This document shows positions 7,595 to 46,260 of a stretch of 64,000 bases of DNA, one piece after another. The translations under genes were made by a program, and so were the position numbers. The stretch lies in NCBI GenBank assembly GCA_026692865.1, contig JAPLNI010000057.1:1-64000 (forward strand). Reading direction: 5' to 3'. The DNA comes from Planctomycetota bacterium (GTDB lineage: Bacteria > Planctomycetota > Planctomycetia > Pirellulales > Pirellulaceae). Position 1 is the stretch's first letter. Each line of letters begins with the position of its first letter. The notes below the pieces were generated by a model, which saw only the letters and a list, made by a program, of their open reading frames with translations, searched no databases and was not told where the DNA came from.

Positions 7595-7932
7595 ACGCGA
7601 TTCGAATCGAAATCCCGTTATCTGTGGACGATTTAGATTTCACTGATTACCTACAATCCAATTGGGCCCTGTACCGCCAAGCACTCAACGGCAGATCAAA
7701 AGACCACGACCCACGGTCCGAAGTCGACACGATTCGAATTACCGAAGTACATTTAGATTCCAATCATGCGGTCATCGGCTACGAAGTCGACTTTTGCATA
7801 AGAAATGGTTGCCAAGACCGAGTCGATTCCGACACCCATTGTCGACAAGTCATCGCGCGACGCGATGGCCGTTGCTTCGTCTTTCAAAGCGACTCACCCG
7901 CAGAAACGCGATCAACCGACGAGGAATTTTGA
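7591..7932 (+). CDS. Small protein of unknown function coupled to the SGNH hydrolase
   Basis: 113 residues, not recognised. No signal peptide or membrane segment. The acidic N-terminal half (IPLSVDDLDFTDYLQSNWAL) is followed by a region with an alternating strand-like pattern (NHAVIGYEVDFCIRNGCQDR). ATG overlaps the upstream stop by four bases, which supports it being a real gene. A double-hairpin dispersed repeat follows it, before the convergent VWA gene. Confidence 0.65.
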   Translation: MNAIRIEIPLSVDDLDFTDYLQSNWALYRQALNGRSKDHDPRSEVDTIRITEVHLDSNHAVIGYEVDFCIRNGCQDRVDSDTHCRQVIARRDGRCFVFQSDSPAETRSTDEEF

Positions 7933-7995
7933 AAACGATTTCGAAACGTTTTCTTCGTTTGCAGAACTAGTGCTTCGTCCAGATTAGTTTCTTGG

Positions 7996-8078
7996 GTAGC
8001 TGAATTCGTAAGAATTCAGATGTCGATGAAAACGATTGCAAAAGCTGGAGTTTTCAGATGTCTTACGACATCTGCTAC
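7996..8078 (+). repeat. Dispersed double-hairpin repeat, copy A
   Basis: Begins GTAGCTGAATTCGTAAGAAT and contains hairpin 1 (GAATTC GTAA GAATTC), then about 35 less conserved bases, then hairpin 2 (CAGATGTC TTAC GACATCTG). Related full copies are at 22060-22144 and, inverted, 29188-29275; a half copy is at 46226-46260. This copy lies between convergent genes. The two hairpin loops, GTAA and TTAC, are complementary to each other, so the whole element is itself a loose inverted repeat. Confidence 0.85.
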
Positions 8079-8128
8079 AAGCACAAACGCCAATTTCTAG
8101 GTTGGACAAAGGACTCGTTATCCTCACA

Positions 8129-10525
8129 TCATGGCAAGTTCCATGATTTTCTTAGGCCCCATTGAATGCATAGCAGTCCGGCGATGCAGATGAAGGCGAA
8201 CCAGCTGTCGATAGGGCCGTCGCCTAGTCGGTAGGTTTGTACGATATCGATCGTTGCCGATTCTCGTATGGTCTTGATTGCGTCAACGATCTCGCTCGCC
8301 GACTCGGGAGCGACGATGCGTCCGCCAGCGGTTTGGTTAAGGGTTGCTAGCTGATTGATCAAAGGCCAATCGGGGGCAGACTGAATTTTCTCGAGCGCCA
8401 TGTCGACCACTACGAATGGAAGTCGGATTTCAGTGGGTTGCACTGTGGGTAGTGCTGCGCGGCCGCTATAGCGTGCGATCAGCTCGTAACGACCAGCTTC
8501 GCCAAGCGAGTTGAGCTTTCCGATCAGACGATTCTCTCCATCCTTTGAAGGAACCAGAGGGCCTAAGTCCTGACCATCGCGACTCCATCTAACTTGAACA
8601 TCCTTGGGTAAGGTTCGTCCATCGGCACCGGGCGTCCAAATGATCGAGTAATCGGTCGCATCGCCCAGTGAAAACGAACGTCGAGGCATCTCGATCTGGA
8701 GCCCTTCCACGGGAGGACGTCGGCGCATGGTCCAGAGTACCGCTTGCCGCCAAAACTGACGATGCACATCCGACTTGCCTTGTCGCCACCATAAGAAAGA
8801 AGAGTCGAAAGCGATCGACAGAACGCGTCCGCCACCTGACTCTCCACTAACGATCAGCGGATCATCAGCTTGGCTTTGCGCGATCCATTGCACGCCAGGT
8901 CGTTCGGCAAGCCCGTTCCATCGATTTGCTCCAACCAACGGCTTGACTTCCTTCCATCGATTTAACGCGTTATCACCCAGCATTACCACCGGATGCTCGG
9001 ATCGAGGAATCAATTGCAATGGGCCTTCAATTTGTCCAGCTTTATTGTCGGGTTGTCCAAATTTTTGACGCCATGCCGGATTCAGCTTGACCGGCAGAAC
9101 TTCCGCTAACTTCGTGTCCGCGTACCCGCCGCTGGAATAAGCATGAAATCCACCCAATGTAATCAAGCCTGCACCACGTTCAATGAGCTCCACAAGCAGC
9201 CTCAAATTCTGAGGCCCCAACGCATCCGAATCCAAATCGCCCAGGATCACGCAATCATAAGTATCGCCCGTTAACTGAGGTTCCAGCGGAAGCGGCCAGC
9301 GTTTTCGAGCCGCTTCGGGAGCCCAGAGAAAATCGATTTTCAAATCGGGGCTATCCGACAGCGCGCGCCGAATAAACTGCTGCTCCTGTCGCGGGGCCCC
9401 TTCCAAGTATAAGACCCTTGAACCCTGATCACGAACGTTGATAAAGCAGGTTTGCTCGTTATTCAAGAGGGTTGCTTCACCTTCGACACCTTCCGCTTTG
9501 ATGACGACTTGATAAAGACCTTTCTCCGGTGCAACGATTGGTAAACTGAATGGAATGGTTTGATCAGCACTCGTTGCGGCGACGATTACTTGATTGAGTA
9601 GGGTAGGCTTCTTTCCGGACTCAGAGCCGCTTGGAATCATGAGTGCTTCGATTTTCAGTTCTCGATTCTGGAGCCCTGTCGCACGAAGAGTACCTCTTAC
9701 GGCTACAGTATTCTTTGCAAAAGCTTCCAATTGATCCGGGACACCTTCGATCGATTGATCACGAGTCATATCAGATCCACTACGTGGCCCGATACCGACG
9801 AGGAAGAGAGGAATATCCAGTTGCGTGAGACTGCGAACCGCCTGTTGCGCCTTGGATGTATCCGCGCGAGCCGTTTGCGCTCCGTCCCCCATCCAGATCA
9901 CTGACAAAAGCGGCGGGTCGGATGGGGTTTCTAGGATTTGCGACAACCCGCGTCCCACGTCGGTTACGGTCCCTTCAGGCCTGCGGGGCATGGCAGCCCA
10001 AGTGCTTTCACTCCCCATCAATCCACCGTCAGTAGCGCCACCCTCAGTAAATATTGGGCTCAACCGCAGCATCTGCCGATCATAGCCATAGAGAGCCCAG
10101 CTCACTTCTTCACCCAGTGAACGTGATGCGGTCTGGATTGCTTCGACTGCTTGTTTTTGAATCTCCCAACGACTCTTGTTGTCAACGCCCGATGGTAGGT
10201 TCATGCTTGCAGAAGTATCGACAAGTACGGCAATCGAATGGGGTGTCTGACTGGTTCGTGTGAACGTTAATGCAGGTCGGAGTAAGAGAAAACCGACTAC
10301 CAGAATCATGGCGAGTCGGAGAAGCGAAAGTGTCGCTTTTTGCTTAATTGTTAGCGCTCGATCCGAACCAATAAACCACCAAGCAGCAAGCATCGCAACG
10401 ATCAAGCTGCCCGTTGCGACATAGCTTCCGAACATCGGCTCGACTGTCCAATCAACAACAGCCCAATCAACAACAGCAAGCAGCTCAATGACCCTTGGTA
10501 GGAAAATCGATCGTAACCCTATCAT
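8129..10525 (-). CDS. VWA-domain membrane protein with a glutamine amidotransferase-like domain
   Basis: 798 residues, last gene of the moxR-DUF58-BatA-VWA cluster. Two N-terminal membrane segments (~36-52 and ~68-85) are followed by a VWA domain with an intact MIDAS start, DTSAS (D103, S105, S107). Residues ~375-480 resemble the class I glutamine amidotransferase-like fold often found in these proteins (RVLYLEGAPRQEQQFIRRAL, then LVELIERGAGLITLGGFHAY); no catalytic triad was identified. One more membrane segment lies near the C-terminus (SWFAFICIAGLLCIQWGL). The gene overlaps the upstream BatA-like gene by four bases. Such clusters are linked to envelope stress and to metal-dependent assembly by MoxR ATPases; the role here is inference. 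Confidence 0.87.
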   Translation of the reverse strand: MIGLRSIFLPRVIELLAVVDWAVVDWTVEPMFGSYVATGSLIVAMLAAWWFIGSDRALTIKQKATLSLLRLAMILVVGFLLLRPALTFTRTSQTPHSIAVLVDTSASMNLPSGVDNKSRWEIQKQAVEAIQTASRSLGEEVSWALYGYDRQMLRLSPIFTEGGATDGGLMGSESTWAAMPRRPEGTVTDVGRGLSQILETPSDPPLLSVIWMGDGAQTARADTSKAQQAVRSLTQLDIPLFLVGIGPRSGSDMTRDQSIEGVPDQLEAFAKNTVAVRGTLRATGLQNRELKIEALMIPSGSESGKKPTLLNQVIVAATSADQTIPFSLPIVAPEKGLYQVVIKAEGVEGEATLLNNEQTCFINVRDQGSRVLYLEGAPRQEQQFIRRALSDSPDLKIDFLWAPEAARKRWPLPLEPQLTGDTYDCVILGDLDSDALGPQNLRLLVELIERGAGLITLGGFHAYSSGGYADTKLAEVLPVKLNPAWRQKFGQPDNKAGQIEGPLQLIPRSEHPVVMLGDNALNRWKEVKPLVGANRWNGLAERPGVQWIAQSQADDPLIVSGESGGGRVLSIAFDSSFLWWRQGKSDVHRQFWRQAVLWTMRRRPPVEGLQIEMPRRSFSLGDATDYSIIWTPGADGRTLPKDVQVRWSRDGQDLGPLVPSKDGENRLIGKLNSLGEAGRYELIARYSGRAALPTVQPTEIRLPFVVVDMALEKIQSAPDWPLINQLATLNQTAGGRIVAPESASEIVDAIKTIRESATIDIVQTYRLGDGPIDSWFAFICIAGLLCIQWGLRKSWNLP

Positions 10526-22024: not shown

Positions 22025-22059
22025 GAATGCTGGTGCGATGTCCAAATTAGATTTTGGGG

Positions 22060-22144
22060 TTAGCTGAATTCGTAAATATTCAAAGGTGGACGGAAACAAA
22101 AGTAAAGCTGCGGTCTTCAGATGTCTTACGACATCTGCTTCGAG
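22060..22144 (+). repeat. Dispersed double-hairpin repeat, copy B
   Basis: Contains TAGCTGAATTCGTAA (hairpin 1 decayed to GAATTCGTAAATATTC) and an intact hairpin 2 (CAGATGTC TTAC GACATCTG), ending TGCTTCGAG. It lies about 36 bases upstream of the trmB start in a divergent gap of about 320 bases; the rest of that gap, 22145-22341, shows no gene. Confidence 0.85.
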
Positions 22145-22341
22145 TAATATCCCCAGTTGTTAAAAGGGACGAGTTTGTCTGGGTTTTTTCTGGATCTGCT
22201 GAAGCTCAAATCAGTAGAGTCTACTCGGTTCAAGGATGTCTGTTTGAAATTTTGATCGGCAGTGCTACCGCATGGAAGAATTCGCTACAATTTGTAGATA
22301 ATTGCCCGCTTAATTCATTTCCCACCTTATTGAGTTCTCAA

Positions 22342-27944: not shown

Positions 27945-27973
27945 AAATCTTGAGCCGCAATCGAACCGATTAG

Positions 27974-28001
27974 CGTAGGATGGGTCCACTGTCCCGTCCA
28001 A
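27974..28001 (+). repeat. Dispersed GGGACCATTGTCCC-type repeat, copy 2
   Basis: CGTAGGATGGGTCCACTG then TCCCGTCCAA; matches the reverse complement of 2777-2804 with two mismatches. Confidence 0.7.
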
Positions 28002-28055
28002 ACACCAGCCTTCTAATCAATTCGTTATCTCCGAAAGTCTCCCCGCGCAAACGGC

Positions 28056-28332: not shown

Positions 28333-29166
28333 GTGAAGTCTAACTTCAATCGACGAGCATGGATGTCTGGAGCGGCCCGCATGGGAATCGCTGGCTGTTT
28401 GCTTGGCGGTTGCAAATCAGCTCCGATGACTGGAAGAAAACAACTCTTGTTGCTTCCCGAGTCGCAAGAGATTGCGATGGGTCAGCAGGAGTTTGGCCAG
28501 ATCCTCCAAGAGGAGCCAATATCCCAAGACCAAAGGTTATCAGCCATGGTCCATCGTGTGGGCACTCGGCTTGCCGCAGTTGCAGGTAAACCAAACTATC
28601 AATGGGACTTTCGTTTGCTTCAATCTGAAACGCCCAATGCATTTTGTTTGCCAGGTGGAAAGGTTGCGGTTTACGACGGCATCCTTCCCGTATGTCAAAC
28701 CGAGGCGGGATTAGCTGTAGTGATGAGTCATGAAATCTCACATGCAATCGCTCGTCACGGAGGCGAACGGATGAGTCAGAAGATGGGAGTGAATGCGGTA
28801 CAAACTGCACTTGACTACACCTTCAGCGGGACTTCCGGTGCAACACAGGGTTTGGTCCGTTCTGCTTACGGTGCGGCAAGCCAATACGGTGTCATTCTTC
28901 CTTATAGTCGCAAGCATGAGAGCGAAGCAGACCTCATGGGAATTCAGTTGATGGCAAGAGCCGGTTACGACCCTTCTGAAGCACCTCGATTTTGGTCCCG
29001 TTTTGGACAGATCGCAGCCTCGTCATCTCAGAAGCCACCTGAGTGGCTCTCGACACACCCATCGGACCAAAGAAGATCAACCGACTTGGCTGCTGCATTA
29101 CCAAACGCAGACATGATTTATCAAACGACCCCCGCTCGATACGGCATGGGCGAAGCGATTCTCTAG
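28333..29166 (+). CDS. M48 family metalloprotease, lipoprotein
   Basis: 277 residues. The N-terminus has a twin-arginine-like start (NRRAWMSGAARMG) and a lipobox (CLLGGCKS), suggesting Tat export and lipid anchoring. The zinc motif is HEISH (H133, E134, H137) followed by HESEADLMGIQLMARAGYDP with the third-ligand Glu; this is the BepA/LoiP-like exported M48 group involved in outer membrane protein quality control. Start GTG 28333 is taken because it includes the RR motif, although no ribosome site is evident; an ATG 30 bases downstream would lose the arginines. Confidence 0.9.
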   Translation: MKSNFNRRAWMSGAARMGIAGCLLGGCKSAPMTGRKQLLLLPESQEIAMGQQEFGQILQEEPISQDQRLSAMVHRVGTRLAAVAGKPNYQWDFRLLQSETPNAFCLPGGKVAVYDGILPVCQTEAGLAVVMSHEISHAIARHGGERMSQKMGVNAVQTALDYTFSGTSGATQGLVRSAYGAASQYGVILPYSRKHESEADLMGIQLMARAGYDPSEAPRFWSRFGQIAASSSQKPPEWLSTHPSDQRRSTDLAAALPNADMIYQTTPARYGMGEAIL

Positions 29167-29187
29167 CGTTTCGTCCAGATGTTTCTA

Positions 29188-29275
29188 CTCGAAGCAGATG
29201 TCGTAGGAAATCTGAAGGTATCAGAATTTTCTAGTATTTCTATCGACTTCTGAATTCTTACGAATTCAGCTACCC
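29188..29275 (-). repeat. Dispersed double-hairpin repeat, copy C
   Basis: Inverted relative to copies A and B. Read on the minus strand it has GGTAGCTGAATTCGTAAGAA with an intact hairpin 1 and CAGATTTCCTACGACATCTG (hairpin 2 with two changes), ending TGCTTCGAG. It starts 22 bases after the M48 stop. Confidence 0.85.
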
Positions 29276-29322
29276 CAAAATCACATTGGGGAAAAAGCAC
29301 CAGCCAGGGATTTTCCTCTTAC

Positions 29323-29345
29323 CGTAGGGTGGGACCATTGTCCTG
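29323..29345 (+). repeat. Dispersed GGGACCATTGTCCC-type repeat, copy 3 (partial)
   Basis: CGTAGGGTGGGACCATTG then TCCTG; matches the left two thirds of copies 1 and 2. Confidence 0.6.
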
Positions 29346-29487: not shown

Positions 29488-29760
29488 ATGGCCGCATGTT
29501 GGCCAAAGGCCATATTCAACATAGCCAGGGGCAACGCCCCTGGAACTGCCATTGATTGAATTGTTCGATTGGCCAACGGCCATAATCAACGGAGCGATTA
29601 AAGCTTGAATATGGCCGTTGGCCAATCCAGTGACCTTTTTTGCAATACCTGGGGCGTTGCCGCAAAGCGGCTTTGCCCCAGGCTACGATGAACATGGCCT
29701 TCGGCCAATCTGAGACTATGGCCTTTGGCCAATTCGCATGGCCGTTGCGGCTCGCGCTAC
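29488..29760. repeat. Cluster of GGCC hairpins and larger palindromes
   Basis: At least five short palindromes share TGGCCnnnGGCCA: near 29500, 29570, 29611, 29693 and 29719 (e.g. TTGGCCAAAGGCCATA and ATATGGCCGTTGGCCAA). Between them lie two GC-rich hairpins, CCAGGGGCAACGCCCCTGG (29525-29543) and a longer one at 29648-29682 with arms CCTGGGGC and GCCCCAGG. No coding frame explains them. Confidence 0.8.
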
Positions 29761-29830: not shown

Positions 29831-29850
29831 AGCCCACCATTGTCCCGTCC
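29831..29850 (+). repeat. Dispersed GGGACCATTGTCCC-type repeat, copy 4 (partial)
   Basis: GCCCACCATTGTCCCGTCC matches the right half of copies 1 and 2. Confidence 0.55.
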
Positions 29851-30502
29851 GATTGCAAGATCGGGACCCTAATCCCAAATTACGACCGGCGTCACTCATT
29901 CCGTCACTCGTCCAAGAACCAATGCGAGGGCTTTCTGGTGGTTGAGTCTTCCCGCGTTCTAAACTGGCTGAAAAGCCAGGCATTGCGGCTTGCCGTAGCT
30001 TTGTGGCAATCGTTGGCGTCCTGGATCGCTAATGGAGACCAATGCGCGTAAGTAGCCATCTTGGGGGGGATAGTGTCCGGCCAACCAGGAAATTTAGAAA
30101 AATTTACCAAATTGGTTTTAACCGATGCTTGCATTCATAAATCGGCTGGTCCATATTACCCATTCGTCCAAATTTTTTTTAATGGACGTTTTTCTTCTCC
30201 AGTACCGGCTTAGCGTCCTCTCAAATGATGTTGTCTAACCTCACATCGAGCACTGCTCGATATCTTGAACCTGCAAAAACTCGGGCGCATCGTCCTAGTT
30301 TTGCAGTGTTTACTGAGGTTGTTGTTGCTCCTGTAGGGGTGATTCAAAGACTCTTCGGCTCTTTGATTGGAAGCTTTAGTAAAGCGGATGCAATTGGAGT
30401 TCTTGGGTTAACCAGAACTTTGATCGCATTCGGTACGACTGGACGGGCAAATAGATTCTTAATCTCGAGTGGTTATAGTTCTGTCGTTTTTGGGAGCTCA
30501 AC
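29851..30502. other. Non-coding leader region before the giant gene
   Basis: About 650 bases without a supportable gene. It contains a G run (30062-30069) and poly-T/poly-A stretches. A 98-residue frame starting at 30225 has no family-like features and overlaps the giant gene start. Promoter elements were not identified with confidence; the region presumably carries the promoter and leader of the 11.4 kb gene. Confidence 0.5.
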
Positions 30503-33500
30503 ATGCGTCGAAACAATCTAAGTAATCTCCGTAAGCATCGTGAAGTCGCTTTGTCAAGGAAGCTCGTTTCTGGTGTGAAGGAAGGTGCGACTCCCGCATT
30601 GATTTCGTCAGCACCAACCAGTCGCATGATGAGATTACGTCAGAAGTTTCGAACCGCCCTTTTACTCGGACTGATGTCCTTCTCGCAGGCGCTTCCTGGT
30701 AGTGCAGCTGACCTGTACTGGGATCCGGTTTTGACGGTAGCTGGCAACAACACGGTGAGCGGTGTTGGGCTTGGCGGAGCCGGTACTTGGGATACAACCC
30801 TGCTTAATTGGTATAACGGCACAAACAACATCGCCTGGACCAACGCGAATAATGATACGGCATTCTTCGCAGGGACTGCAGGTGCTGTGACACTTGCCAC
30901 TCCTATAACGGTCGGGGGACTGACTTTCAGGACAACAGCTTACTCAATCGATGCCGGAGCGTCTGGGCTTACATTTGGTGCTCCAAATAATGCAATTACT
31001 TTGGAGAACGTCGCTGCTGCAACCATCAATGGTACGATTTTGGGAACCGGCAACGTGAGCCTCGGTGGCGGCAGGCGTCGCGGTTTGACCGCAAGCATTC
31101 TGACACTTGGTGGTACCTCCGCGGGAGGTTGGACAGGTGCAACGACGATTGGTGTCGCACAGACATTATCTTTGACGGGCCTGAATCAAGGGCTGCTCTC
31201 AACGAGCTCGATCACCATGAACGGTGGTGGTCTGGCAACCGGCATTTCGTTGAACAATACAACGAATGCCGAAGCTGCTGTGAATCGCGTAAGCGATACT
31301 GCGCCAATTACTTCGAATGGTGGCAATATAACGGTCACGAACACGGCGGCAGCAGTTACGCTTTACAATGAACTCATTGGCGCGGTCACTCTCAATTCTG
31401 GCCGTTTGAACGTTGTTTCGACGAACGCACTCACATCCGGAACGTCAACGCTCACGTTAGGTGGTTTAACCCGAAGTGGTACGGCGTCGATTGGTTTTGG
31501 GATCGGTGGTTTATCAGCTACAGGTACGACGACCGCCTTAAACAGAATTCTGATCACTGGTCAGGGCGGCACGGCGGCGAACCAGATTATTGGTGCTTGG
31601 GCGACAGTTGGCACGGCAACTGGCGTTCAAACCGACTATGCGGCTTACAACATCAATGCGGGTGTAGCTAACACGTTGGGTGTTCAGGGAGCCGGGATTG
31701 CTGCGACGGCTGAAACCACGTGGACAAACCTTGCGAATGCTTATACGCAAAACGGTGGGGCCGTGACCCTGACGGCAAGTCGCGCAATCACCGCTTTACG
31801 CAATACGAACACTGCAGCCACGTCAACAGCATTAGGGGCCTTTAACCTTGATACGTTTGGCTTACTCAATGCGGGTACTGGTCTTTGGACCATATCGGGT
31901 GGTGGAGCGCTTCGTCAGCAAGGCACCGCAGCGGCGAATCTGCATGTGAATACTGGTAACACGGGAGGGATTACGATCAGTGCTCCGATCAACGACAACA
32001 CTGGTGCGCTGACGCTGGTCAAGGATGGGGCGGGAGGGACTTTGACGCTCAGTTCAGCAGCAAGCACGTTCAGCGGTGGTTTGGTCATTAATTCAGGTAC
32101 GGTTTCCTTAGCCGACAACAGCAATTTGGGGGCTCTGTCAAACAATGTTACCTTCAACGGCAACGCTATTCTCGCTGTGTCTGGAAACGTTGTGGATGTC
32201 GCTCGTGGAATTGTTCTCAACAATGGTGCGATCGGGACGCTGAATACAACTACTGCAACTGCTAACAACATCACTACGTATAGCGGCATTATTTCTGGTG
32301 ATGGAGGGGTGGCTATCACCAACACGACCGGCACCGCATCGGTGAATCTTACTGGTGCGAACACGTTTACCGGTCCAGTGCAAGTCGCGAGCGGACTTCT
32401 TTCTTATTCCACCGTCAGCGATAATGGTGGCCCCGCAAGTAATCTTGGTCAGGGTACCGATTCGATTAGCTTAAGTGGCGGAACGTTCAACTTTATTGGA
32501 AGCTCAAATCAGTCGACGAATCGTGCGATTTTACTTAATGCAAACAGTAACCTCGGATCCAATGGAACCGCATCGATTACTTATGCAGGACCCATTATTG
32601 CTGGTGGTAGCAATCCAACCTTCAATGGAACCGGTGCTACCGTGATAACGGGTGGCGTGAGCCAGACTGGTACCGCGGCTGACTGGACTTACGCTCCAAC
32701 TGGAGCAGGAACTTTAGCGATCAGCGGAACGCCTTGGTCGATCGCAGACGATTTCACTCTTACCGGTGCAGGCCCAGCGTCTGTAGTAAGCCTGAACAGC
32801 ACTGGAGTCTACGCGACAAACGGTGGAGCCAATACTGAGGCTCGTTTGTTCATTCGAAACGGCACTCTTAGTTTTGGAGCTGACAATCCGATCGTGGCGC
32901 TTGCGGCTACCGGAGTGAGTAGACTTTCTCTGGGTGACGGTACCACTGCGGGCACAGGTACCTTAGTGATGAATGGCTTTGACCAGTCGATTCCAACTCT
33001 TGATCTTGGATCGGTAAATACTGGTTTCGACGGTGCGATTACTGGCGGTGCAGGATCACTGCTAACCGTTGGGACGACGTTGAACCTCAACCGAGGGACA
33101 ATTGCTAGCGACGTAAGCCTTGCAGGGGCGGCCGCGATTGTGAAAGCTGGCCTAGGTACGGTTACCATGTCAAGCGACAATAGTGGCCTTACCGGCACAT
33201 CAACGCGAGTTGACGCAGGGAATCTTATTCTTGATTACACGACGCAAAACAACAACAAGTTGAGCAGCGCGTCGGTATTGGACTTTCGTGGAGGCACACT
33301 TACACTCAATGGCAATGCAGCCGGCACAACTCTAGCCGTCCCTTCGACGACCTTCGCCAACGGTGGTGCAAACTCGATTGTCATCAATGCTGGTGCTGCC
33401 GGAGCGGTTTTGAACCTCAACGCGGTTACTCGCGGTGCTTTGGCTAACGACAGTACTGTTCGTTTCGTACTCCCTACCGGCGCCCAATCTGCGACCAATG

Positions 33501-36500
33501 GGATTACAACCGATACGGTAAACAATAACTTGACGTCTAACGGTATTCTTGGCGGCTGGGCCACTGTTGATGATGGAACTGGTGTTTTCTTCGCTCGCAA
33601 CGCGACCAATGGCCCTGACGGAAACATCGTCGCTGCGAACGCTACGACACAGGACTCAGTTAATTCTTGGACTTCCGGAATCAACGTCACCGACTCCTCT
33701 GGGTTTTCCGGTACATTGGCTAATTGCCTGACGATCAATAGCCTTCGTTTCAATGCGAATGGTGCATCGACAGTCGCAATTCCAAGTGGCGGCGGATTGC
33801 GAATCGCCAGCGGTGGTATTCTGATGACGAATATTGTCGCGTCGGGGTCTCAGTCGATTTCCGGCGGTACTCTTTCGTCGGGAATTAACGAGCTGATTTT
33901 CACTCAGGATAGCACTCAGACTTTGTCGGTGAGTTCTCGAATCACTGGAGCCACCGGCATTACGAAGGCGGGTACTGGCGTACTGACGCTAAGTGGATCG
34001 AATGATTACAGCGGTGCTACCGACCTACAGTCGGGGACGTTGATTGCGAGCGGTGGAACAGCGATCGGTGACAATTCCGTAGTTACGCTGGCGGACGATC
34101 AAGCTTCCACCATCCAATTTTTAAACAATGAATCAATAGGTGGCTTGGCAGGAGGAAACGCCTCCGCCGGGCTAATAGTCGGAACCGTTGATGTGGGCTC
34201 AAATACTTTGACAGTACGAGGTGGAGGTGGGTACGCTGGTGTATTCACCGGAAGCGGAGTAATTACGAGAAACACGTCTTTTAGTAATGCAGCGAACGTG
34301 AATCTAACCGGCGTGTCCAGCGGCTTTACTGGCACAGTGAACGTGGACGGCGGTCTGTTGCAATTTTCAGGTCTCGGTGCGATCAATGCGTCTGTGATCA
34401 ATGTGAATAGCGGAGGTAACCTCCTTCTCGACAACAACGGTGGTACACGCAGCGGGGCCCGTATTCTGGATACGACTCCGATCAATTTGAATTCTGCCAA
34501 TGGATCGTTTGCGACGACTACGGTCGTTCGTGGTTTAGCGATTCGAACTGACCAGAATGCGACAACTAGCGAGACGATCGGTTCTCTCAATTTCGCTTCG
34601 GGAGCAAACTACCTCACCGGCGACGCGTCGGGGACAACTGGCGTCGCGATACTCACTGCGAGTAATTTTGTACGTACGAATAACGCGACAGTGAATGCTC
34701 GCGCCAGAGCAATGGGCGCAACCACGGGAGACAGAAGTGGTTTTCGGATAGCAACTGGGGCTGCTGAAACGACGTTCGTCGGGACCTTAGTTGGCGGAGG
34801 TGGTGCCGCTGCATCGCAGAACATTAGCATCGTCCCGTGGGGTATTGGAGAAACGCTTACCGCAGGCACGACCGATTTGAATATGGGTAACTCACTCATT
34901 ACTTATGTCACTGGAGCAGGGTTCCGCGCGCTCGATTTCGCGACGGAATACAACACGCTTGCCGCGGCAACGGCCACACAGAATGCTCGTACGTCACTGA
35001 CAGCGAATGCTACGGCGATTGCAGGCAAGACAGTTAATTCGCTCGTACTTCACAATGCAACTACCACAGGCACCCCGACATGGACGGTTACGGGAACCGG
35101 TGCCGGGCAGACGCTTGCTGTTACCAGCGGTGCTCTTCTTTTCACTCGTGATACCGGTGCCGCTACTGCTTCCGGGATTACTTTGGGTAGCTTTGACGGC
35201 GGCATTACCACGGCTGGCGCTTTGCCAGAGTACGTTATCCATGTCGTGAACCCAGACTCGGCTTCTACTACCAAAACGCTCACAGCAACGATCAGTTCAA
35301 ATCTCACCACGACGGCTGATGTTACCAAGGCCGGTCGCGGTATCCTTGTATTAAGTGGTACTAACACAGCTGGTGGTAATACGAAAAAGACAACGATCAG
35401 CGAAGGAATTCTCCAGATAGCCTCGCTTGGAAACATCGGCGGCAACACTGGCGCTTTGGTTTTTTCTGGTGGTACTTTGAGGCTTGGGGCCGGTTTCACG
35501 GGTGATGTTTCGACTCGAACTGTTACTTTCCTCAATGGCGGCGGAACGATTGATACGAATGGTGTGAGCTCTACCATTGCGAACAGTTTTGGAACGGGAA
35601 CCGGCTCTTTTACAAAAGCGGGAGCTGGAAATCTGACGCTGAATGCTGCTGCGGGTTATTCTGGCAATACCACTGTTAGTGCGGGACGCCTAATTCTGGA
35701 CGCAGGGACCAACACGTTACCTTCGGGCGGCGGCTTGACCCTCTCTGGAGGTTCGGTGCAATTAGGAAGTGTTAACCCAGCCAATCAGGCAGTCACTTCG
35801 CTTTCCGGTGCTTCTGCTACCAGCGCGATTGTTGGCGGCAATTCAACACCGTCCGTCTTGACGGTGAACCAAGACTCTTCAACCACCTATGCTGGCCTTA
35901 TCGGTGGAGCAGGTGCTAACGAAAACAATATCTCCGTGGTTAAGAATGGCATTGGCAACCTCACTCTTGGTGGAGTCGCAAGTACCTTTACCGGTGGAAT
36001 TACAGTCAACTCGGGAACACTTACCGGGGGCAACAACGCGAACACCTTCGGTGCAAATACGAACGCCATCACGCTAGGTGCGACTTCAGGTACTGCGGAT
36101 GCAACTCTGTCATTCTTCAACTCGCAAACGTACGCCAATCCAATAACGGTCGCCGCGGGTAGCAGTGGTACAGCAACAATCGTGCTCGGTGCAACCACGG
36201 GTAGTCCAATCGTAAATGGTCCCATCACCATAAATAAGGATCTCCTGGTCACCAAGGAAGGAACAACTGGCGTAGGCGTTATCTCGGGTGGTATTACCGG
36301 TACGGGTAATCTTCTGATTCGCAATGAGGGAACATCTGGAACGATTAACTTAACCACTGCGGCAATCAATAACGTCGGGACCATTGTCAACAAAGGGTTC
36401 GCAACGGGCGCAACAACAATCAGTGCACCTATCGGAACGAGTGTGACTAGCGTTATTCAAGACAGTGCAACATCTGCACTCATTTTAAGTACTCCAACCA

Positions 36501-39500
36501 ACACTTTTGGCGGCAGCATCGCGGTTAGAAGAGGAACCCTTAGTTTCGCGAATGGAGTCGGTACACCGTTTGCCAGTCTGTCCGGTCTTTCGCTAGGGGT
36601 AAACGAAAACACCGGTCTCGAACTTGACGTTGCAGACGGCGGAACAGACACGTTAACGACGTCCACGGCTGCGAGCGTAAGTAACGTCACAACCCTGTTC
36701 ATTAAGGACGTCGACATCACGAGCGGGAATACCTACAACCTGTTAGTTGATGCAAACAACGGCTTAGGAACAGCGGCAAACTATCTTCTCAATTTACCTG
36801 GCTACACGGGAAGCAGTCTGTCAGTAACTCCAGGGTTGGTACAGCTTACAGCAGGTACTTTGGTTACCAGCGATGTGTATTGGGCAGGTGGGGCGTCCAC
36901 TGCCTGGAACACCGTCGTCCCGGGTGCCCCTGACACCACTAATTTTTCGACCAATGTTGCTGGTTCAACACTTTCCGAGACCCTGCCAGGAAAAGGCCAG
37001 AAGGTAATCTTCCAAGCCGACAATCTTGTTGGAGGAGGTCCTTTATCAACAACTTTGGAACAGGGATTTACGATCAACGCTCTTGAATTCCGGCCTAGCG
37101 GAACAGCTGCCAACACGGCGAGAATTACTTCGATCGCTCCTGGTTCAGTGACTTCTAACGCGATTACGATCAGGCCGACTTCGATAGCAGATGGTATCAA
37201 CCTCCTTTCTGGATCGTCTGGCTCAGTTAACATTTCGGCAAACGTGGCAGCTGGTACCAATCAGACTTGGACGGTTTCAGACGCGCCGGTTGAACTTACT
37301 GGTACCAGCACAACGAACCTCAGCCCAATAGTTTCTGTGAGCAGTACAACTGGACTTACGCGAGGCATGCCGATTACCGGAACAAACATTCCGGCCAACG
37401 CAACCATCCTTTCGGTTGACAGTGCAACACAAATTACTCTTTCCGCGAATGCGTCCGCAACCGCGACAGGTACGGGAATCGCATTTGCCACTCAGCAGCT
37501 AAATGTCAGTGGTTCGATTTCTGGCACTGGAAATATCACGAAAGCCGGCCCAGGAAGGTTAGTTCTTAGTGGTGGCGGTTCAGGGTACACAGGGACTTTT
37601 AGTGCAAACTCGGGCATAACTGAGATAACGGTCGGTAACGCCTTAAGCGGAATCGTCTCTACACCAGGTACGGGTGCCCCAATCAGCATTGGTCCTAGCG
37701 GTACTCTTTACGTCAATGCGGCTGCGACCACACTTCCCAACAATTTAACGATCAATGGCGGCACTCTGAGTGCCGGTGGCGGCAACCAAACGTACAGCGG
37801 CACCGTAAATATCGCTTCGAATTCGAACATCAACATGCGCGATCTAGCTGCCAGCGCGACTTTCAGCACAACCGCACGAAACATCACGCTTTCTGGCGTT
37901 GTCAGTGGTGCAGGCAATCTGACCATCGATAGTTCGACAACCTTGGCTTCCGGAAACGCATTGAATGGAACCCTCACACTCACCAACGCCAATACCTGGA
38001 CTGGTGACGTCTTCATCAATCAAGGTTCGTTTTTCCTGAATAACTTGGCGAGTCCGAGCTTCACGGGTAACAATGTGACGTTCAACAGCTTCGGCCGCGT
38101 CAATATTGCGGGGTTAAACACGACTCTGAATCGCACAGGGACCTTGAACCTTGCGGCTGGCGCAATAGGTGAGGTCGGGGTTGACAACACCGATGCCGTT
38201 CCTGCCAGTTTTATCGTCAACCAAACTGGTGCAGTAAACCTCGGTGCCGGCGGAACTGGTGCCTCGCTCCGTAGCTTCTTCCAAGACGATCAGTCCACGA
38301 TGAATATCGATGGCGCAGTCAATCTGGGAGGAAACAGCAGCATCTCGGTGGCCGCCGCCGCCACTCGCTTGCTGACCATTAACGGTGTGATTAATGACGG
38401 TGCCAACAGCTACAGCTTGGCAATCAACGATGACGCTGGTGGATGGGCCCAAACCAACGGTATTGTTCGTCTTACCAACGCCAACACCTACGATGGCGGC
38501 ACGACGTTGGCAAGCGGTATCTTGCAACTAGGCAACAAGGATGCACTTGGTACTGGTGCTCTAACGGTATCTGCTGCAAGTACTTTGCAGGCAACGATTC
38601 CACTAAGCGGTGCCAATGCACTTGCAAATCCGATTACACTTGACGCAACATTAACAGCTAGTGGTACCAACGACATAACACTCAGCGGACCAATTACTGG
38701 TATCGGTGGACTCACGAAGGCAAGCGCAAGTACGATTACCACGCTTACCATTTCTAATACGAACTCGTACAGCGGAACTACGACGCTAAGTGGTGCCGCC
38801 ACATTGCATGCAGGGGTCATTGCTGCGACAGCAAACAATGCGCTTGGAACAGGACCGGTTTCGGTTCTTTTCAACACAAATACTCTTAGCACGCAACTCA
38901 CGCTTTCCGGCGGCATCACGCTCGGCAACAGCGTGTTTAACACTACGGGCGTGGGCACGGATGGAACCATTAACGGAATCCTTCGAAGCGTAAGTGGTAG
39001 CAACACGATTTCTGGTAACTTGAACCTTCAGGGTGGCGGAGGTAGCAGTACCTATCGAGCCGATACTGGCGCGGGTCTAACGGTAAACGGTTTTGTGGGA
39101 AGTACGGCCAACGCTGTTCGAGACATGACCTTAGTCGGTGGCGGCAACTTTAACTTTGGCGGCGTAATTCGTGACAGTAATCAGCTGGTTCCGAACGCTG
39201 CAGATAGAATAAACGTCGTCTCCACCAATACTGGTGCCACCACACTCAGCGGTACCAACACCTATACTGGAACAACTACCTCCGGCCTTGGAAGTACGCT
39301 GGTCGCCGGATCCACTCAAGCTTTCGGAATTGGTTCTGCTGCATCGGTAGATGGAACCCTCCGCTTGGCTGGCTTTAGCAATTCAATCGGTTCTCTTGCA
39401 GGCACTGCGACAGGTATTGTAGAAAATTCGGCAGTTGGCCCGGCGACGCTATCGACAGGTAGCTCCAACACAAGCACGACTTTTAGTGGGCTTATACAAA

Positions 39501-41923
39501 ATGGTATCGGGGGCGGTGCATTGTCACTTACTAAAACTGGCACCGGAGCTATGACTTTGTCAGGCGCGAATACGTATGGCGGAGGGACCACTTTAAGCGG
39601 CGGAGTTTTGATCGCAGCTAACGATAGCGCATTGGGCACGGGAGCGTTATCGTTTAGTGGTGCTGGCCAACGACTTGTGGTGAACGATGGAGTTACGATT
39701 ACTAACAACATCACCATTGGCACTAACGCAGGTGGCGTAGGCCGTGGTTTGATTGAGAACAGCGGCCCTGGCAACGCTACGGTCAGCGGCGGCACGATTA
39801 CAATCAACAACGGTCCTGCGGGAGGTGGAACTTTTGCCTCTGCAAGCGGCGGCACGCTAACTATCGCCAGTGCGATCACGTCCTCAGTACCAGTGACTAT
39901 TCGGACTGGAACAGTGATTCTCAGCGGAGGTGGGTCTTACAGCGATTTCCTAGTGACCGGCACCGCAAGACTGGGAGCCAACAACGGTCTCTCCACCTTG
40001 GCCACTTTGGACCTCGGTGCGTCTGCCGCTGGTGACTTTGACCTAGCAGGCTTCAATCAACAGCTTGTTGGAATTACCAGAAGCACTGCAAACGCCGGAA
40101 TAATCGGCAATAGTTCTACGACGACAGACTCCGTGCTGACAACCACCGGTACCAGCGTTTATTCGGGGATCATCCAGAACGTACTGGGGGCAGGCACGAG
40201 AAACGTGGCTCTCACTGTCAATGGCGGAGCCCTCACCCTCTCCGGCACAAACACATACACCGGAGTGACGACAATTAGCAGCGGTACGCTCCAAGTTGGT
40301 AATGGAACGGACGCGGGATCGATTGAAACCTCCAGCGGGATCATCAATAACGCTGCGTTGGTCTACAATGTGGGTGCAGGTACTCGGACCTATGGAAATG
40401 TGATAAGCGGTACCGGTTCGATAACGCAGAATAGTACTGGCGGAACACTGACCCTCTCGGGTACGAACATCTACACCGGTGCGACTAGCGTTGGTGCTGG
40501 TGGATCACTTGTTGCTGGATCGACTCAAGCATTCGGTGTGAATTCAGCCACGACGGTAACAGGTACGTTACGACTTGCGAGCTTCAGCAACTCGATCGGA
40601 TCCCTGGCGGGTGCGGGTACAGTTGAAAATGCCAATGCTGCTGCAGCAACGCTAACCACTGGCGGAAACAATACAAGCACCGTCTTTAGTGGTCTGATTC
40701 AGGATGGTACTGGTGGCGGTGTACTTACGCTTGCCAAAACCGGTACCGGAGCCATGACGTTGTCTGGGACCAACACTTACACAGGTGGCACAACGTTCAA
40801 CGCTGGGACACTGGTTGTCAACACTGAAGCGTCCTTGGGAGCTACCTCTGGAGCACTCACGGTGACTGGTAACAGCTCGGTACAACTTGCCGCGGCCTTC
40901 GATACGACTCGGAACTACGTCCTCAATGCAGGCGTTTTGACAGTTGACACACAGGCTTTCAATCAGACCAACAGCGGTACGGTCAGCGGTATTGGTGGCT
41001 TGGCGAAGTCCGGAACCGGTGCGTTGACTCTCTCGGGTACGAACACCTATAGTGGTACAACCAATGTTGGTGCGGGAGGCTCGCTCGTTGCAGGATCGAC
41101 GCAGGCTTTCGGTGTGAATTCGGCAGTGTCGGTGACAGGTGCTTTACAGCTTGCTGGCTTCAGTAACTCGATCGGGTCACTGACTGGTACGGGTACTGTT
41201 GAGAATGCAAATGCAACGGCCGTGACACTGACAACCGGTGGTGACAACACTAGTACCGTCTTTAGCGGTCTGATTCAGGATGGTGCTGGCGGTGGTGCAT
41301 TGTCCTTGTTGAAGACCGGGACAGGAATCCAAACAATCAGTGGAGCCAACACCTTCACGGGTGCTACGGTTATCAGTGGTGGTATCCTACTTGCTAATAA
41401 TGTCGGTGGCTCTGCTCTGGGAACCGGCGGCGTCACAGTGACCGGAACCGGTATCTTAGGTGGAACTGGTGGATCAATAAGCGGTGCGGTGGCTTTGGCT
41501 AATGGTACTCTCTCTCCGGGAGCTTCGATTGGTACTTTAGCTATCGGTTCAGCAAGCGGAACAGGATCGTTGTTTGTCGAGTACAATTCGACGGCTCAAA
41601 CAATTGACGTGTTGAATGTGACGGGAGCTTTGAATCTCGACAACTTCACATTGAATTTTGCCGATCTTGGTGCAGGCAGCCTATCGAATCCATCCTATGT
41701 GTTCGCGACCTACGGTTCTCTTTCAGGTATAACTAACACCTTCACAAGTGTTATCGGAACACCCGCTGGCTACTCGCTCGATTACGCCTTCGGAGGTAAT
41801 AACATTGCGTTGGTTACCGCAGTTCCTGAACCAAGTACATTGGCTCTGCTAACCGTTGCGATCGTGGGTGGTGGTTTGTATCGCCGATCTCGCAACCAAA
41901 AGAAGAACGTAGCGAAGTCGTAG
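30503..41923 (+). CDS. Giant exported PEP-CTERM protein built of autotransporter-associated beta-strand repeats
   Basis: 3806 residues. The N-terminus is long and basic (~50 residues) before a hydrophobic stretch (FRTALLLGLMSFSQALPGSA), an extended signal peptide; ATG 30503 has GGAG six bases upstream, and an alternative start at 30626 would give an ordinary signal. The mature protein is almost wholly repeats of the pattern LTLSGTNTYTGGTTxxxGTL, the autotransporter-associated beta-strand repeat, expected to form a long beta-helix. A second WxG-type module start (SDVYWAGGASTAWNTV) occurs near residue 2124, like the N-terminal ADLYWDPV block. The C-terminus is PEP-CTERM: VPEPST, a hydrophobic helix, then YRRSRNQKK, so it is an exosortase substrate rather than a true autotransporter; there is no barrel domain. 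It is poor in Cys and rich in Gly, Thr, Ser and Asn. Probably a surface, adhesion or matrix protein. A strong terminator follows. Confidence 0.93.
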   Translation: MRRNNLSNLRKHREVALSRKLVSGVKEGATPALISSAPTSRMMRLRQKFRTALLLGLMSFSQALPGSAADLYWDPVLTVAGNNTVSGVGLGGAGTWDTTLLNWYNGTNNIAWTNANNDTAFFAGTAGAVTLATPITVGGLTFRTTAYSIDAGASGLTFGAPNNAITLENVAAATINGTILGTGNVSLGGGRRRGLTASILTLGGTSAGGWTGATTIGVAQTLSLTGLNQGLLSTSSITMNGGGLATGISLNNTTNAEAAVNRVSDTAPITSNGGNITVTNTAAAVTLYNELIGAVTLNSGRLNVVSTNALTSGTSTLTLGGLTRSGTASIGFGIGGLSATGTTTALNRILITGQGGTAANQIIGAWATVGTATGVQTDYAAYNINAGVANTLGVQGAGIAATAETTWTNLANAYTQNGGAVTLTASRAITALRNTNTAATSTALGAFNLDTFGLLNAGTGLWTISGGGALRQQGTAAANLHVNTGNTGGITISAPINDNTGALTLVKDGAGGTLTLSSAASTFSGGLVINSGTVSLADNSNLGALSNNVTFNGNAILAVSGNVVDVARGIVLNNGAIGTLNTTTATANNITTYSGIISGDGGVAITNTTGTASVNLTGANTFTGPVQVASGLLSYSTVSDNGGPASNLGQGTDSISLSGGTFNFIGSSNQSTNRAILLNANSNLGSNGTASITYAGPIIAGGSNPTFNGTGATVITGGVSQTGTAADWTYAPTGAGTLAISGTPWSIADDFTLTGAGPASVVSLNSTGVYATNGGANTEARLFIRNGTLSFGADNPIVALAATGVSRLSLGDGTTAGTGTLVMNGFDQSIPTLDLGSVNTGFDGAITGGAGSLLTVGTTLNLNRGTIASDVSLAGAAAIVKAGLGTVTMSSDNSGLTGTSTRVDAGNLILDYTTQNNNKLSSASVLDFRGGTLTLNGNAAGTTLAVPSTTFANGGANSIVINAGAAGAVLNLNAVTRGALANDSTVRFVLPTGAQSATNGITTDTVNNNLTSNGILGGWATVDDGTGVFFARNATNGPDGNIVAANATTQDSVNSWTSGINVTDSSGFSGTLANCLTINSLRFNANGASTVAIPSGGGLRIASGGILMTNIVASGSQSISGGTLSSGINELIFTQDSTQTLSVSSRITGATGITKAGTGVLTLSGSNDYSGATDLQSGTLIASGGTAIGDNSVVTLADDQASTIQFLNNESIGGLAGGNASAGLIVGTVDVGSNTLTVRGGGGYAGVFTGSGVITRNTSFSNAANVNLTGVSSGFTGTVNVDGGLLQFSGLGAINASVINVNSGGNLLLDNNGGTRSGARILDTTPINLNSANGSFATTTVVRGLAIRTDQNATTSETIGSLNFASGANYLTGDASGTTGVAILTASNFVRTNNATVNARARAMGATTGDRSGFRIATGAAETTFVGTLVGGGGAAASQNISIVPWGIGETLTAGTTDLNMGNSLITYVTGAGFRALDFATEYNTLAAATATQNARTSLTANATAIAGKTVNSLVLHNATTTGTPTWTVTGTGAGQTLAVTSGALLFTRDTGAATASGITLGSFDGGITTAGALPEYVIHVVNPDSASTTKTLTATISSNLTTTADVTKAGRGILVLSGTNTAGGNTKKTTISEGILQIASLGNIGGNTGALVFSGGTLRLGAGFTGDVSTRTVTFLNGGGTIDTNGVSSTIANSFGTGTGSFTKAGAGNLTLNAAAGYSGNTTVSAGRLILDAGTNTLPSGGGLTLSGGSVQLGSVNPANQAVTSLSGASATSAIVGGNSTPSVLTVNQDSSTTYAGLIGGAGANENNISVVKNGIGNLTLGGVASTFTGGITVNSGTLTGGNNANTFGANTNAITLGATSGTADATLSFFNSQTYANPITVAAGSSGTATIVLGATTGSPIVNGPITINKDLLVTKEGTTGVGVISGGITGTGNLLIRNEGTSGTINLTTAAINNVGTIVNKGFATGATTISAPIGTSVTSVIQDSATSALILSTPTNTFGGSIAVRRGTLSFANGVGTPFASLSGLSLGVNENTGLELDVADGGTDTLTTSTAASVSNVTTLFIKDVDITSGNTYNLLVDANNGLGTAANYLLNLPGYTGSSLSVTPGLVQLTAGTLVTSDVYWAGGASTAWNTVVPGAPDTTNFSTNVAGSTLSETLPGKGQKVIFQADNLVGGGPLSTTLEQGFTINALEFRPSGTAANTARITSIAPGSVTSNAITIRPTSIADGINLLSGSSGSVNISANVAAGTNQTWTVSDAPVELTGTSTTNLSPIVSVSSTTGLTRGMPITGTNIPANATILSVDSATQITLSANASATATGTGIAFATQQLNVSGSISGTGNITKAGPGRLVLSGGGSGYTGTFSANSGITEITVGNALSGIVSTPGTGAPISIGPSGTLYVNAAATTLPNNLTINGGTLSAGGGNQTYSGTVNIASNSNINMRDLAASATFSTTARNITLSGVVSGAGNLTIDSSTTLASGNALNGTLTLTNANTWTGDVFINQGSFFLNNLASPSFTGNNVTFNSFGRVNIAGLNTTLNRTGTLNLAAGAIGEVGVDNTDAVPASFIVNQTGAVNLGAGGTGASLRSFFQDDQSTMNIDGAVNLGGNSSISVAAAATRLLTINGVINDGANSYSLAINDDAGGWAQTNGIVRLTNANTYDGGTTLASGILQLGNKDALGTGALTVSAASTLQATIPLSGANALANPITLDATLTASGTNDITLSGPITGIGGLTKASASTITTLTISNTNSYSGTTTLSGAATLHAGVIAATANNALGTGPVSVLFNTNTLSTQLTLSGGITLGNSVFNTTGVGTDGTINGILRSVSGSNTISGNLNLQGGGGSSTYRADTGAGLTVNGFVGSTANAVRDMTLVGGGNFNFGGVIRDSNQLVPNAADRINVVSTNTGATTLSGTNTYTGTTTSGLGSTLVAGSTQAFGIGSAASVDGTLRLAGFSNSIGSLAGTATGIVENSAVGPATLSTGSSNTSTTFSGLIQNGIGGGALSLTKTGTGAMTLSGANTYGGGTTLSGGVLIAANDSALGTGALSFSGAGQRLVVNDGVTITNNITIGTNAGGVGRGLIENSGPGNATVSGGTITINNGPAGGGTFASASGGTLTIASAITSSVPVTIRTGTVILSGGGSYSDFLVTGTARLGANNGLSTLATLDLGASAAGDFDLAGFNQQLVGITRSTANAGIIGNSSTTTDSVLTTTGTSVYSGIIQNVLGAGTRNVALTVNGGALTLSGTNTYTGVTTISSGTLQVGNGTDAGSIETSSGIINNAALVYNVGAGTRTYGNVISGTGSITQNSTGGTLTLSGTNIYTGATSVGAGGSLVAGSTQAFGVNSATTVTGTLRLASFSNSIGSLAGAGTVENANAAAATLTTGGNNTSTVFSGLIQDGTGGGVLTLAKTGTGAMTLSGTNTYTGGTTFNAGTLVVNTEASLGATSGALTVTGNSSVQLAAAFDTTRNYVLNAGVLTVDTQAFNQTNSGTVSGIGGLAKSGTGALTLSGTNTYSGTTNVGAGGSLVAGSTQAFGVNSAVSVTGALQLAGFSNSIGSLTGTGTVENANATAVTLTTGGDNTSTVFSGLIQDGAGGGALSLLKTGTGIQTISGANTFTGATVISGGILLANNVGGSALGTGGVTVTGTGILGGTGGSISGAVALANGTLSPGASIGTLAIGSASGTGSLFVEYNSTAQTIDVLNVTGALNLDNFTLNFADLGAGSLSNPSYVFATYGSLSGITNTFTSVIGTPAGYSLDYAFGGNNIALVTAVPEPSTLALLTVAIVGGGLYRRSRNQKKNVAKS

Positions 41924-43219: not shown

Positions 43220-43280
43220 TAAAAACTGAGCCGATAACGCTATCCACATCGGAAAGAGTTTTTCGGCATAACAAATTTCT

Positions 43281-43482: not shown

Positions 43483-43508
43483 CTGAGCCGGTGGCCCTAG
43501 CCACGGGT
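43483..43508 (+). repeat. Dispersed repeat fragment, CTAGCCACGGGT type, copy 2
   Basis: Matches 2561-2586 in 23 of 26 bases. The remainder of the gap to 43609 shows no gene. Confidence 0.55.
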
Positions 43509-44647: not shown

Positions 44648-46201
44648 ATGGAAAACAGCGAGCCAACCGCGAATAAGACCCCCACTTCCGAAATAAGCGC
44701 GCTCGGTGGAGGAATACAAAACAGAACGTTTTTGGGTCACCCCATCGGCCTATTTGTGCTCTTCTTTGCCGAAATGTGGGAACGATTTTCTTACTATGGC
44801 ATGCGAGCACTTTTAGTTCTCTACTTGATGCAGCACTTCTTGTTTGGCAAAGAACAAGCATACATCATCTATGGTGCTTACACTTCTTTGGTTTACATCA
44901 CGCCTGCGATCGGCGGGTGGCTCGGCGACAATTTCTTAGGGCAACGAAAAGCGGTTTTGTTCGGGGCTATCATGCTTACATTCGGGCACATACTGATGGC
45001 ACTCGAGGGAGACGGCGGACAAGATGCCTTTTACCTTAATTTCTTTTACCTTGCACTTAGCTTCATCATCGTCGGATCCGGGTTTCTTAAAGCAAATATT
45101 TCGTCGATTGTTGGCTCACTCTATGACCGAGATGACAAACGCAAGGATCCAGCGTTTACCATTTTTTACATGGGAATTAATCTTGGTGCCGCCCTTGGAG
45201 CGATCATAGCCGGATACCTCGGTGAAACGATTGGTTGGAGATATGGTTTCGGTGCCGCAGGCTTAGGTATGGTACTTGGATTGATCGTATTTGTGTTAGG
45301 AAAACCATTACTCATGGGACGAGGTGAGTCACCATTCCCAGACAGATTGAAGCAAGTTCGTGTCGGAATAACGACCGAATGGTTGATATATATTGGAGCG
45401 GTCTTTGCTGTTGTGATCGTCTGGCAGCTTATTCAATACCAGTCAGTTGTTGGATGGCTCCTGGGGGCATGTGGGCTTGCTTTGGCCAGTTACGTCCTTT
45501 ACACCTCCGCGACCACTCTCCAGTCTCAAGATCGCGATCGTATTTTCGTCGCCATGTTCCTTATGGGGGCATCGATTTTGTTCTGGGCTCTCTTCGAACA
45601 GGCGGGCTCGTCATTGAACGTGTTCACCGATCAACGTGTAGATCGTAATATGTTTGGCTTCAACATCCCGGCTTCTACCTTCCAGTCGATCAACGCAATT
45701 TACATCGTGCTCTTAGCGCCCGTGTTTGCATTCCTTTGGACGTTTCTGGCGGCTCGCAAATTAGAACCATCGACCCCCGCCAAATTTGGCCTAGCCATGA
45801 TTCAACTGGGTGCAGGATTTCTAGTACTCGTCGCTGGAGCGTTGGCGGCGGGTCAAGGTCTAACACCTGTCATCTTTATTTTTGCGATTTACTTGTTGCA
45901 CACAACAGGAGAACTATGCCTATCACCCGTAGGATTATCCGCAATGACGAAGCTTGCATTACCGCATATGGTCGGGCTTATCATGGGGACTTGGTTTTTC
46001 GCTTCAGCTTTAGGCAATTTCGCGGCCGGATTGATTGCGAGTGCCACCGGAGGCGGCGAAGAGCTTGGAGTAGAAAGTGTAACTCAGGTATACACAACTG
46101 TAGGCTGGACAGCTGTAATCGTGGGCGTTGCGATTGTCATCGTATCACCGTACTTCAAGAAACTGATGCACCTAGATTCCCTTCATCAAGCAAATACTTA
46201 A
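44648..46201 (+). CDS. POT/PTR family proton-coupled peptide transporter
   Basis: 517 residues with about 12-14 membrane helices. The family signature FFAEMWERFSYYGMRALLVL (ExxERFxYYG) lies in helix 1, and FTIFYMGINLGAALGAIIAG matches the PTR2 motif in helix 5. It moves di- and tripeptides with protons across the cytoplasmic membrane; some members carry nitrate or other solutes. It converges on the xdhC gene across a 76-base gap holding a half copy of the double-hairpin repeat. A link to purine use is not indicated. Confidence 0.93.
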   Translation: MENSEPTANKTPTSEISALGGGIQNRTFLGHPIGLFVLFFAEMWERFSYYGMRALLVLYLMQHFLFGKEQAYIIYGAYTSLVYITPAIGGWLGDNFLGQRKAVLFGAIMLTFGHILMALEGDGGQDAFYLNFFYLALSFIIVGSGFLKANISSIVGSLYDRDDKRKDPAFTIFYMGINLGAALGAIIAGYLGETIGWRYGFGAAGLGMVLGLIVFVLGKPLLMGRGESPFPDRLKQVRVGITTEWLIYIGAVFAVVIVWQLIQYQSVVGWLLGACGLALASYVLYTSATTLQSQDRDRIFVAMFLMGASILFWALFEQAGSSLNVFTDQRVDRNMFGFNIPASTFQSINAIYIVLLAPVFAFLWTFLAARKLEPSTPAKFGLAMIQLGAGFLVLVAGALAAGQGLTPVIFIFAIYLLHTTGELCLSPVGLSAMTKLALPHMVGLIMGTWFFASALGNFAAGLIASATGGGEELGVESVTQVYTTVGWTAVIVGVAIVIVSPYFKKLMHLDSLHQANT

Positions 46202-46225: not shown

Positions 46226-46260
46226 GGTAGCTGGATTCGTAAGAATTCGGAAGTCGATGC
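46226..46260 (+). repeat. Dispersed double-hairpin repeat, copy D (half)
   Basis: GGTAGCTGGATTCGTAAGAA followed by TTCGGAAGTCGATGC: the first hairpin half only (two changes relative to copy A). The second hairpin is missing. It lies between the convergent POT and xdhC genes. Confidence 0.75.

Follow-up and report, generated by a model that had tools for sequence, protein, structure and literature searches.

A dispersed element of about 151 bases is very probably, within its genus, a non-autonomous mini-transposon (MITE) of the IS630 family. Both of its ends appear to be those of an IS630-type insertion sequence, a reading supported by the ends themselves, the target, the copy number and the presence or absence of copies between species. 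An IS630 transposase would have dispersed the element in trans into TA, mostly in CTAG or TTAG, mainly just behind genes. The interior can be described as an inverted pair of related GTAG-tagged hairpins, whose pairing seems to outlast the rest of the element.

Structure and copies of the element

The best-preserved copy in the window (the whole stretch of 64,000 nt that was analysed) is a full element at 7967..8117 on the + strand. It scores 150.6 bits against the covariance model, over model positions 1-151. All of its parts are read on the + strand. A terminal repeat of IS630 right-end type (7967..7999) ends in GGGTAG, a feature shared with the right ends of an insertion-sequence relic in the same genome and of intact insertion sequences of the order. 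The inner edge of this repeat is the first GTAG tag (7996-7999). Next come hairpin 1, CTGAATTC-GTAA-GAATTCAG (8000..8019), whose pairing is preserved among copies, and a spacer (8020..8054), which forms a third, weaker hairpin in the fold of the family consensus. They are followed by hairpin 2, CAGATGTC-TTAC-GACATCTG (8055..8074), which diverges more slowly than the spacer between orthologues, and by CTAC (8075..8078), the second GTAG tag in inverted form. The opposite terminal repeat, of IS630 left-end type, lies at 8088..8117.

Three full copies and one half copy had been reported in the window by the initial annotation, and a sequence check finds all four in place. The second full copy, at 22030..22180 (+ strand, hairpins at 22064-22083 and 22118-22137), also matches the covariance model. 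The third, at 29163..29303 on the - strand, has a terminal CTAG (29163-29166) that holds the TAG stop codon (29164-29166) of ORF 28333-29166. Downstream of it is a 3806-residue ORF (30503-41923) with a 300-base internal repeat at 40449/41025. The fourth copy, at 46198..~46269 (+ strand), is truncated, and its terminal TTAA holds the TAA stop codon (46199-46201) of ORF 44648-46201. What had been called a half copy (46226-46260) is thus present, but it is really a full element that has lost part of its length: a sister species has a full element at this site, so the window copy reflects a deletion in the host lineage. Similarly, the unit of about 85 bases described at first is only the core of the full unit of about 151 bases.

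Hairpin 1, allowing up to three mismatches, is found four times in the window against 0.01 expected by chance. Hairpin 2 has six matches against 0.00 expected; it is a near-palindrome, which also matches its own complement. The loops of the two hairpins are mutually complementary, as had been observed, because the hairpins are related and stand in inverted orientation (GTAG-hairpin ... hairpin-CTAC).

The family is large. The host genome (G000; 5.55 Mb in 72 contigs) and a sister species of the same genus (G001) were both searched. At least 40 core copies were found in the first search of the host genome (the best 40 of 186 candidates, all of them core copies). The exact 12-mer TCGTAAGAATTC occurs 99 times there and its reversed control not at all, and 389 kb of retrieved host DNA yielded 124 copies. 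With the covariance model of the full unit, the host genome has at least 150 copies (150 of the 150 scored candidates match) and the sister species at least 130 (130 of 150). Two observations that the initial annotation had named as counting against such an element, a lack of further copies and variation at odds with base pairing, were looked for and neither was made: the copies are many and their variation agrees with pairing.

In an oriented alignment of copies, conservation runs outward past both hairpins. The element is bounded by inverted repeats CTAGTGCTTTGTCCA...GGGG, with about 30 bases of terminal repeat outside each hairpin. Its parts stand in the order CTAGTGCTTTGTCCA...GGG, GTAG, hairpin 1, a 35-base spacer, hairpin 2, CTAC, about 10 bases and CCC...CTGGAC(A/G)AAGCACTAG. 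At 119 well-preserved ends the flanks beyond CTAG are random and the inward bases conserved. Mean column identity is 0.77 in the spacer, 0.65-0.71 in the terminal repeats and 0.92-0.94 in the hairpins, the last value calling for caution because copies were partly collected via their hairpins. A terminal repeat cannot be recognised in some copies whose hairpins are perfect; their number, 33 of 111, is an upper count from a rigid test. Coding capacity is nil, as the 151 bases contain no ORF of 100 aa or more.

Shorter relatives also exist. Two of 131 bases (L037 1008-1138 and L041 966-1096) have the same IS630 ends around other inner hairpins with GCCA loops, and are apparently a sister subfamily. 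A single-hairpin version with IS630-type ends lies at L051 976-1060.

IS630-type ends and insertion behind genes

The terminal-repeat pattern, with at most two mismatches, has 78 matches against 15 for a reversed control. Some of these run into a longer element, which encodes the N-terminal half of an IS630-family transposase (NF033545 transpos_IS630, 2e-16; under the curated full-length cut-off because the relic is a fragment). The relic protein also matches Pfam HTH_32, HTH_29 and HTH_23. The right-end relic reads ...TTTTTTGGGTAG, and the left end of the insertion sequence in the host genome agrees with the family consensus of the left-end type at 30 of 32 positions. Only relics were found in the host genome, and no intact IS630 copy of the matching type, so present mobility is doubtful.

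Apparently intact relatives of 1.24-1.25 kb were found by protein search in other genomes of the same order, and their limits were set by comparing two copies of each. Their two ends are unlike, one reading ...GGGGTT inward and the other ...GGGGTAG. Ends of the latter type are found in several further genomes of the order, with a 14-base spacing in nearly all cases. The mini-element combines the two types, one at each end. In the insertion sequences, GTAG is the reverse complement of the 'YP' codons close to the C-terminal end of the transposase (KLKSVYPKIKV* and variants). Since GTAG lies within IS630 right ends, the first "GTAG tag" of the element belongs to the IS630 end. The second tag, CTAC, has no such explanation, with about 9 other bases between it and GGGG.

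The ends of the element read (C/T)TA-GTGC. At end positions 2-3, T is found in 101 and A in 92 of 119 ends, and the preceding base is C in 84. The predicted target is TA, mostly in CTAG. A filled/empty pair at window position 21123 fits insertion at TA; the right end there is decayed, and a clean TA duplication is read at no single site. Elements of the IS630 family, such as ISY100, insert at TA and duplicate it (PMC2170065), and a paper cited there (Tenzen and Ohtsubo 1991) names in its title a preference for transposing into TA within CTAG.

Among 57 ends that face gene 3' ends, 19 share their terminal TAG or TAA with the gene as its in-frame stop codon; no other position relative to the gene 3' end occurs more than 3 times. 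At control 3' ends the share lying at the stop codon is 0.122 of TA sites and 0.169 of YTAR sites, an excess of about two- to threefold (p 0.00003 against the TA control, 0.002 against the YTAR control). An element that lands in the TA of a TAG or TAA stop would do no harm, judging by sequence logic and the observed positions, because its first base, G, restores TAG. A small element can in this way lie exactly on stop codons and leave the protein unchanged. Part of the excess may come from selection that retains the stop codon and hence that end of the element.

Gene contexts were called with a simple purpose-written gene caller. The 124 copies comprise 48 in tandem, 42 in convergent and 24 in divergent contexts, 4 in weak ORFs and 6 undecided, and these contexts differ from the window's own gene junctions (p = 0.008). 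Of the tandem copies, 25 have the same orientation as the genes and 23 the opposite one. The median distance from a copy to the 3' end of the adjoining gene is 14 bases. Two of the window copies (7967 and 46198) indeed lie between convergent genes, as had been stated.

Copies come and go between the two species. Those at 22030 and at C57:396k are absent in the sister species, as is the index copy (7967-8117), whose orthologous junction holds other DNA. The window, in turn, lacks a copy at the stop codon of the ORF that ends at 21123, and the sister species carries one there. About nine element sites are common to both genomes; for the 29163 copy, a search of the sister species found no orthologous region. 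At C55:73721 (L038 1022-1084) the host genome has a 63-base near-perfect palindrome of both IS630 ends, and the sister species has a full, more decayed element.

Pairing of the hairpins and their possible role

The proposed structure pairs 75.2% of cells in a 47-sequence alignment, against about 30-40% when it is slid. Pairing is above that of all 500 shuffles for sets of 104 and 116 distinct hairpins taken from the two genomes. Hairpin cells with a double change are compensated more often than not compensated, by 30:9 and 15:5, counts that shared ancestry within subfamilies inflates. One compensatory change is visible at an orthologous site (CGGAATTC/GAATTCCG versus AGGAATTC/GAATTCCT).

Divergence was compared over nine orthologous pairs; four loci (L199, L215, L220 and L233) were excluded as apparent shared sites of uncertain orthology or orientation. 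It is 13.8% in hairpin 2, 28.8% in the spacer (p=0.0004) and 25.3% in the 5' terminal repeat. Copies were collected with hairpin 1, so that its conservation is biased; hairpin 2 was not the probe for most of these pairs. This supports the view that the hairpins are maintained after insertion.

Folding is strong, with a z of -9.15 for the consensus (as DNA) and -4.10 for the index copy (as RNA). The middle of the spacer also pairs in the consensus fold, and was rejected as a conserved structure because its covariation is no higher than in shuffles. An intrinsic terminator was rejected as well: neither hairpin is followed by a T-tract, and a pattern scan of 7800-8300 gave sites outside the element only. 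Rfam gave no match at the gathering score for window positions 7800-30000. Going by sequence, a structured-RNA role of the hairpins is possible. Most likely they would work in the 3' untranslated regions of numerous genes, as 3'-end structures or against read-through, which is the simplest reading because copies sit behind genes. Hairpins that outlive the decayed mobile ends would offer a testable case of a mobile element being incorporated into many gene 3' ends.

Two other readings bear on the hairpins. The element may be a decayed MITE without host function, with hairpins that seem conserved only because copies were collected by hairpin; this concerns the role of the hairpins and not the identity of the element. 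The use of hairpin 1 as probe and the loss of any intact transposase are consistent with it, but hairpin 2, mostly not the probe, diverges at half the rate of the spacer, and compensatory changes are in excess, with one seen between orthologues. Such a lack of function is doubtful, though it is the most credible of the alternatives. A conserved family of structured RNAs or terminators that lies behind genes and does not itself transpose would explain the strong folding, the compensatory changes and the place behind genes. It is very improbable given that orthologous sites are filled in one species and empty in the other, that the terminal repeats are common to an insertion sequence, and that the many dispersed copies lie in either orientation, without T-tracts or an Rfam match in the part of the window searched.

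Relation to REP sequences and other repeats

The core formally fits a dimer of GTAG REP sequences with GTAG outward, and is in this respect REPIN-like: both hairpins, inverted relatives of each other, carry the tag, GTAG preceding 119 of 184 hairpin-1 sequences and CTAC following 120 of 174 hairpin-2 sequences. A REPIN moved by a RAYT-type Y1 transposase, with outer repeats that were added later or are a palindrome favoured as landing site, would have precedents in the GTAG dimers within long palindromes of Anabaena variabilis and the GTAG repeats of Rhodopirellula baltica, both described in PMC3733652. This origin is nevertheless unlikely. None of the six Y1_Tnp loci in the host genome has the element within 1.5 kb, and the strongest Y1 gene, for an IS200-type protein, is flanked on both sides by other palindromes. 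The REP-associated transposase (TnpA-REP) proposed in the initial annotation is therefore not found beside the element; its term "REP/MITE-type element" was apt as to kind (dispersed, mobile, base-paired and in many copies) and wrong as to boundaries and the REP-transposase association. When copies within the host genome are compared in pairs, similarity of the terminal repeats climbs with similarity of the spacer, which shows that copies spread along with the IS630 ends. No young pair lacking shared ends stood out convincingly in this comparison, and movement of the core alone was rejected for this genome, where the mobile unit is not confined to the GTAG...CTAC segment. The first GTAG, moreover, doubles as the inner edge of the IS630 end.

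A genome from another genus of the same family (G021) speaks for the REPIN origin. It has related cores (38 covariance-model matches), and three copies in the 1.37 Mb read have cores 86-93% identical, no IS630 ends and largely unrelated flanks. For these three copies the mobile unit is apparently the GTAG...CTAC segment, and they suggest that the core may once have moved, or may still move, independently of IS630 ends. One hairpin in this genome starts GTAGACGGATT, exactly like several IS630 right ends. It is conceivable, if improbable, that the GTAG hairpin unit originated from an IS630 end and later gained the ability to spread alone. If so, an ordinary DDE insertion sequence would have given rise to a REP-like family, and repeats that are as a rule tied only to Y1 transposases could have this kind of origin.

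Within the host's genus, the IS630 mini-transposon remains the preferred reading. On this reading the element is an IS630-derived MITE whose inverted pair of hairpins is REP-like, and it is comparable to RUP, the repeat unit of pneumococcus. RUP is a MITE of about 107 bases with IS630-Spn1 as its proposed mover (PMC2229807, PMC3049150). Both elements have ends that resemble an IS630-family element of the host, a TA target, about 100 or more intergenic copies and a base-paired structure (PMC2229807, PMC3049150).

The likeness to GTAG REP dimers and REPINs, as presented in PMC3733652, lies in the GTAG tag, stems of 6-9 bp, an inverted pair with GTAG outside, intergenic position and many copies. 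The present element differs from them in that a Y1 transposase is not adjacent and that the unit of dispersal in the genus includes IS630 ends. Among these REP dimers and REPINs are those of R. baltica, reported by Di Nocera et al. 2013 (PMC3733652). The GTAG-15 dimers of A. variabilis likewise place a GTAG dimer within a longer palindrome; the passage on them ties the palindrome to no insertion sequence, whereas here both arms match IS630 ends. A literature search for MITEs or REP sequences in Rhodopirellula found none. A GTAG-tagged inverted hairpin pair, the usual REPIN signature, can thus belong to an IS630-type mini-transposon, so that the enzyme that mobilises a repeat cannot be read from the signature alone. 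Two kinds of small bacterial repeat that are usually handled apart are joined here, a point of modest importance.

Other repeats were seen along the way. Around the Y1 gene at L031 1209-2037 there is another palindromic family (TTGAATATGGCC.TTGGCCAA; TACCAGGGGCGTTGCCCCTGG in L031) in a REPtron-like arrangement, with members in the window at 29499-29519 and 29567-29627. A second Y1_Tnp locus (L034 1035-2534) lies amid another repeat (TAGCACACCAAACCTTTGCG, GCGACGGCCCGGGCTCGCCCCGGCCGTCGC). A further family of GTAG-tagged palindromes (GTAGGATGGGACCATTGTCCCGTCC) occurs in the window at 2776-2807, 27971-28002, 29320-29343 and 29836-29856; one of its members in the sister species (L200) is nested within the spacer of a double-hairpin element. 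The short repeat CTGAGCCGATGACGCTAGCCACGGGT has three copies in the window, at 2561-2586, 43226-43251 and 43483-43508.
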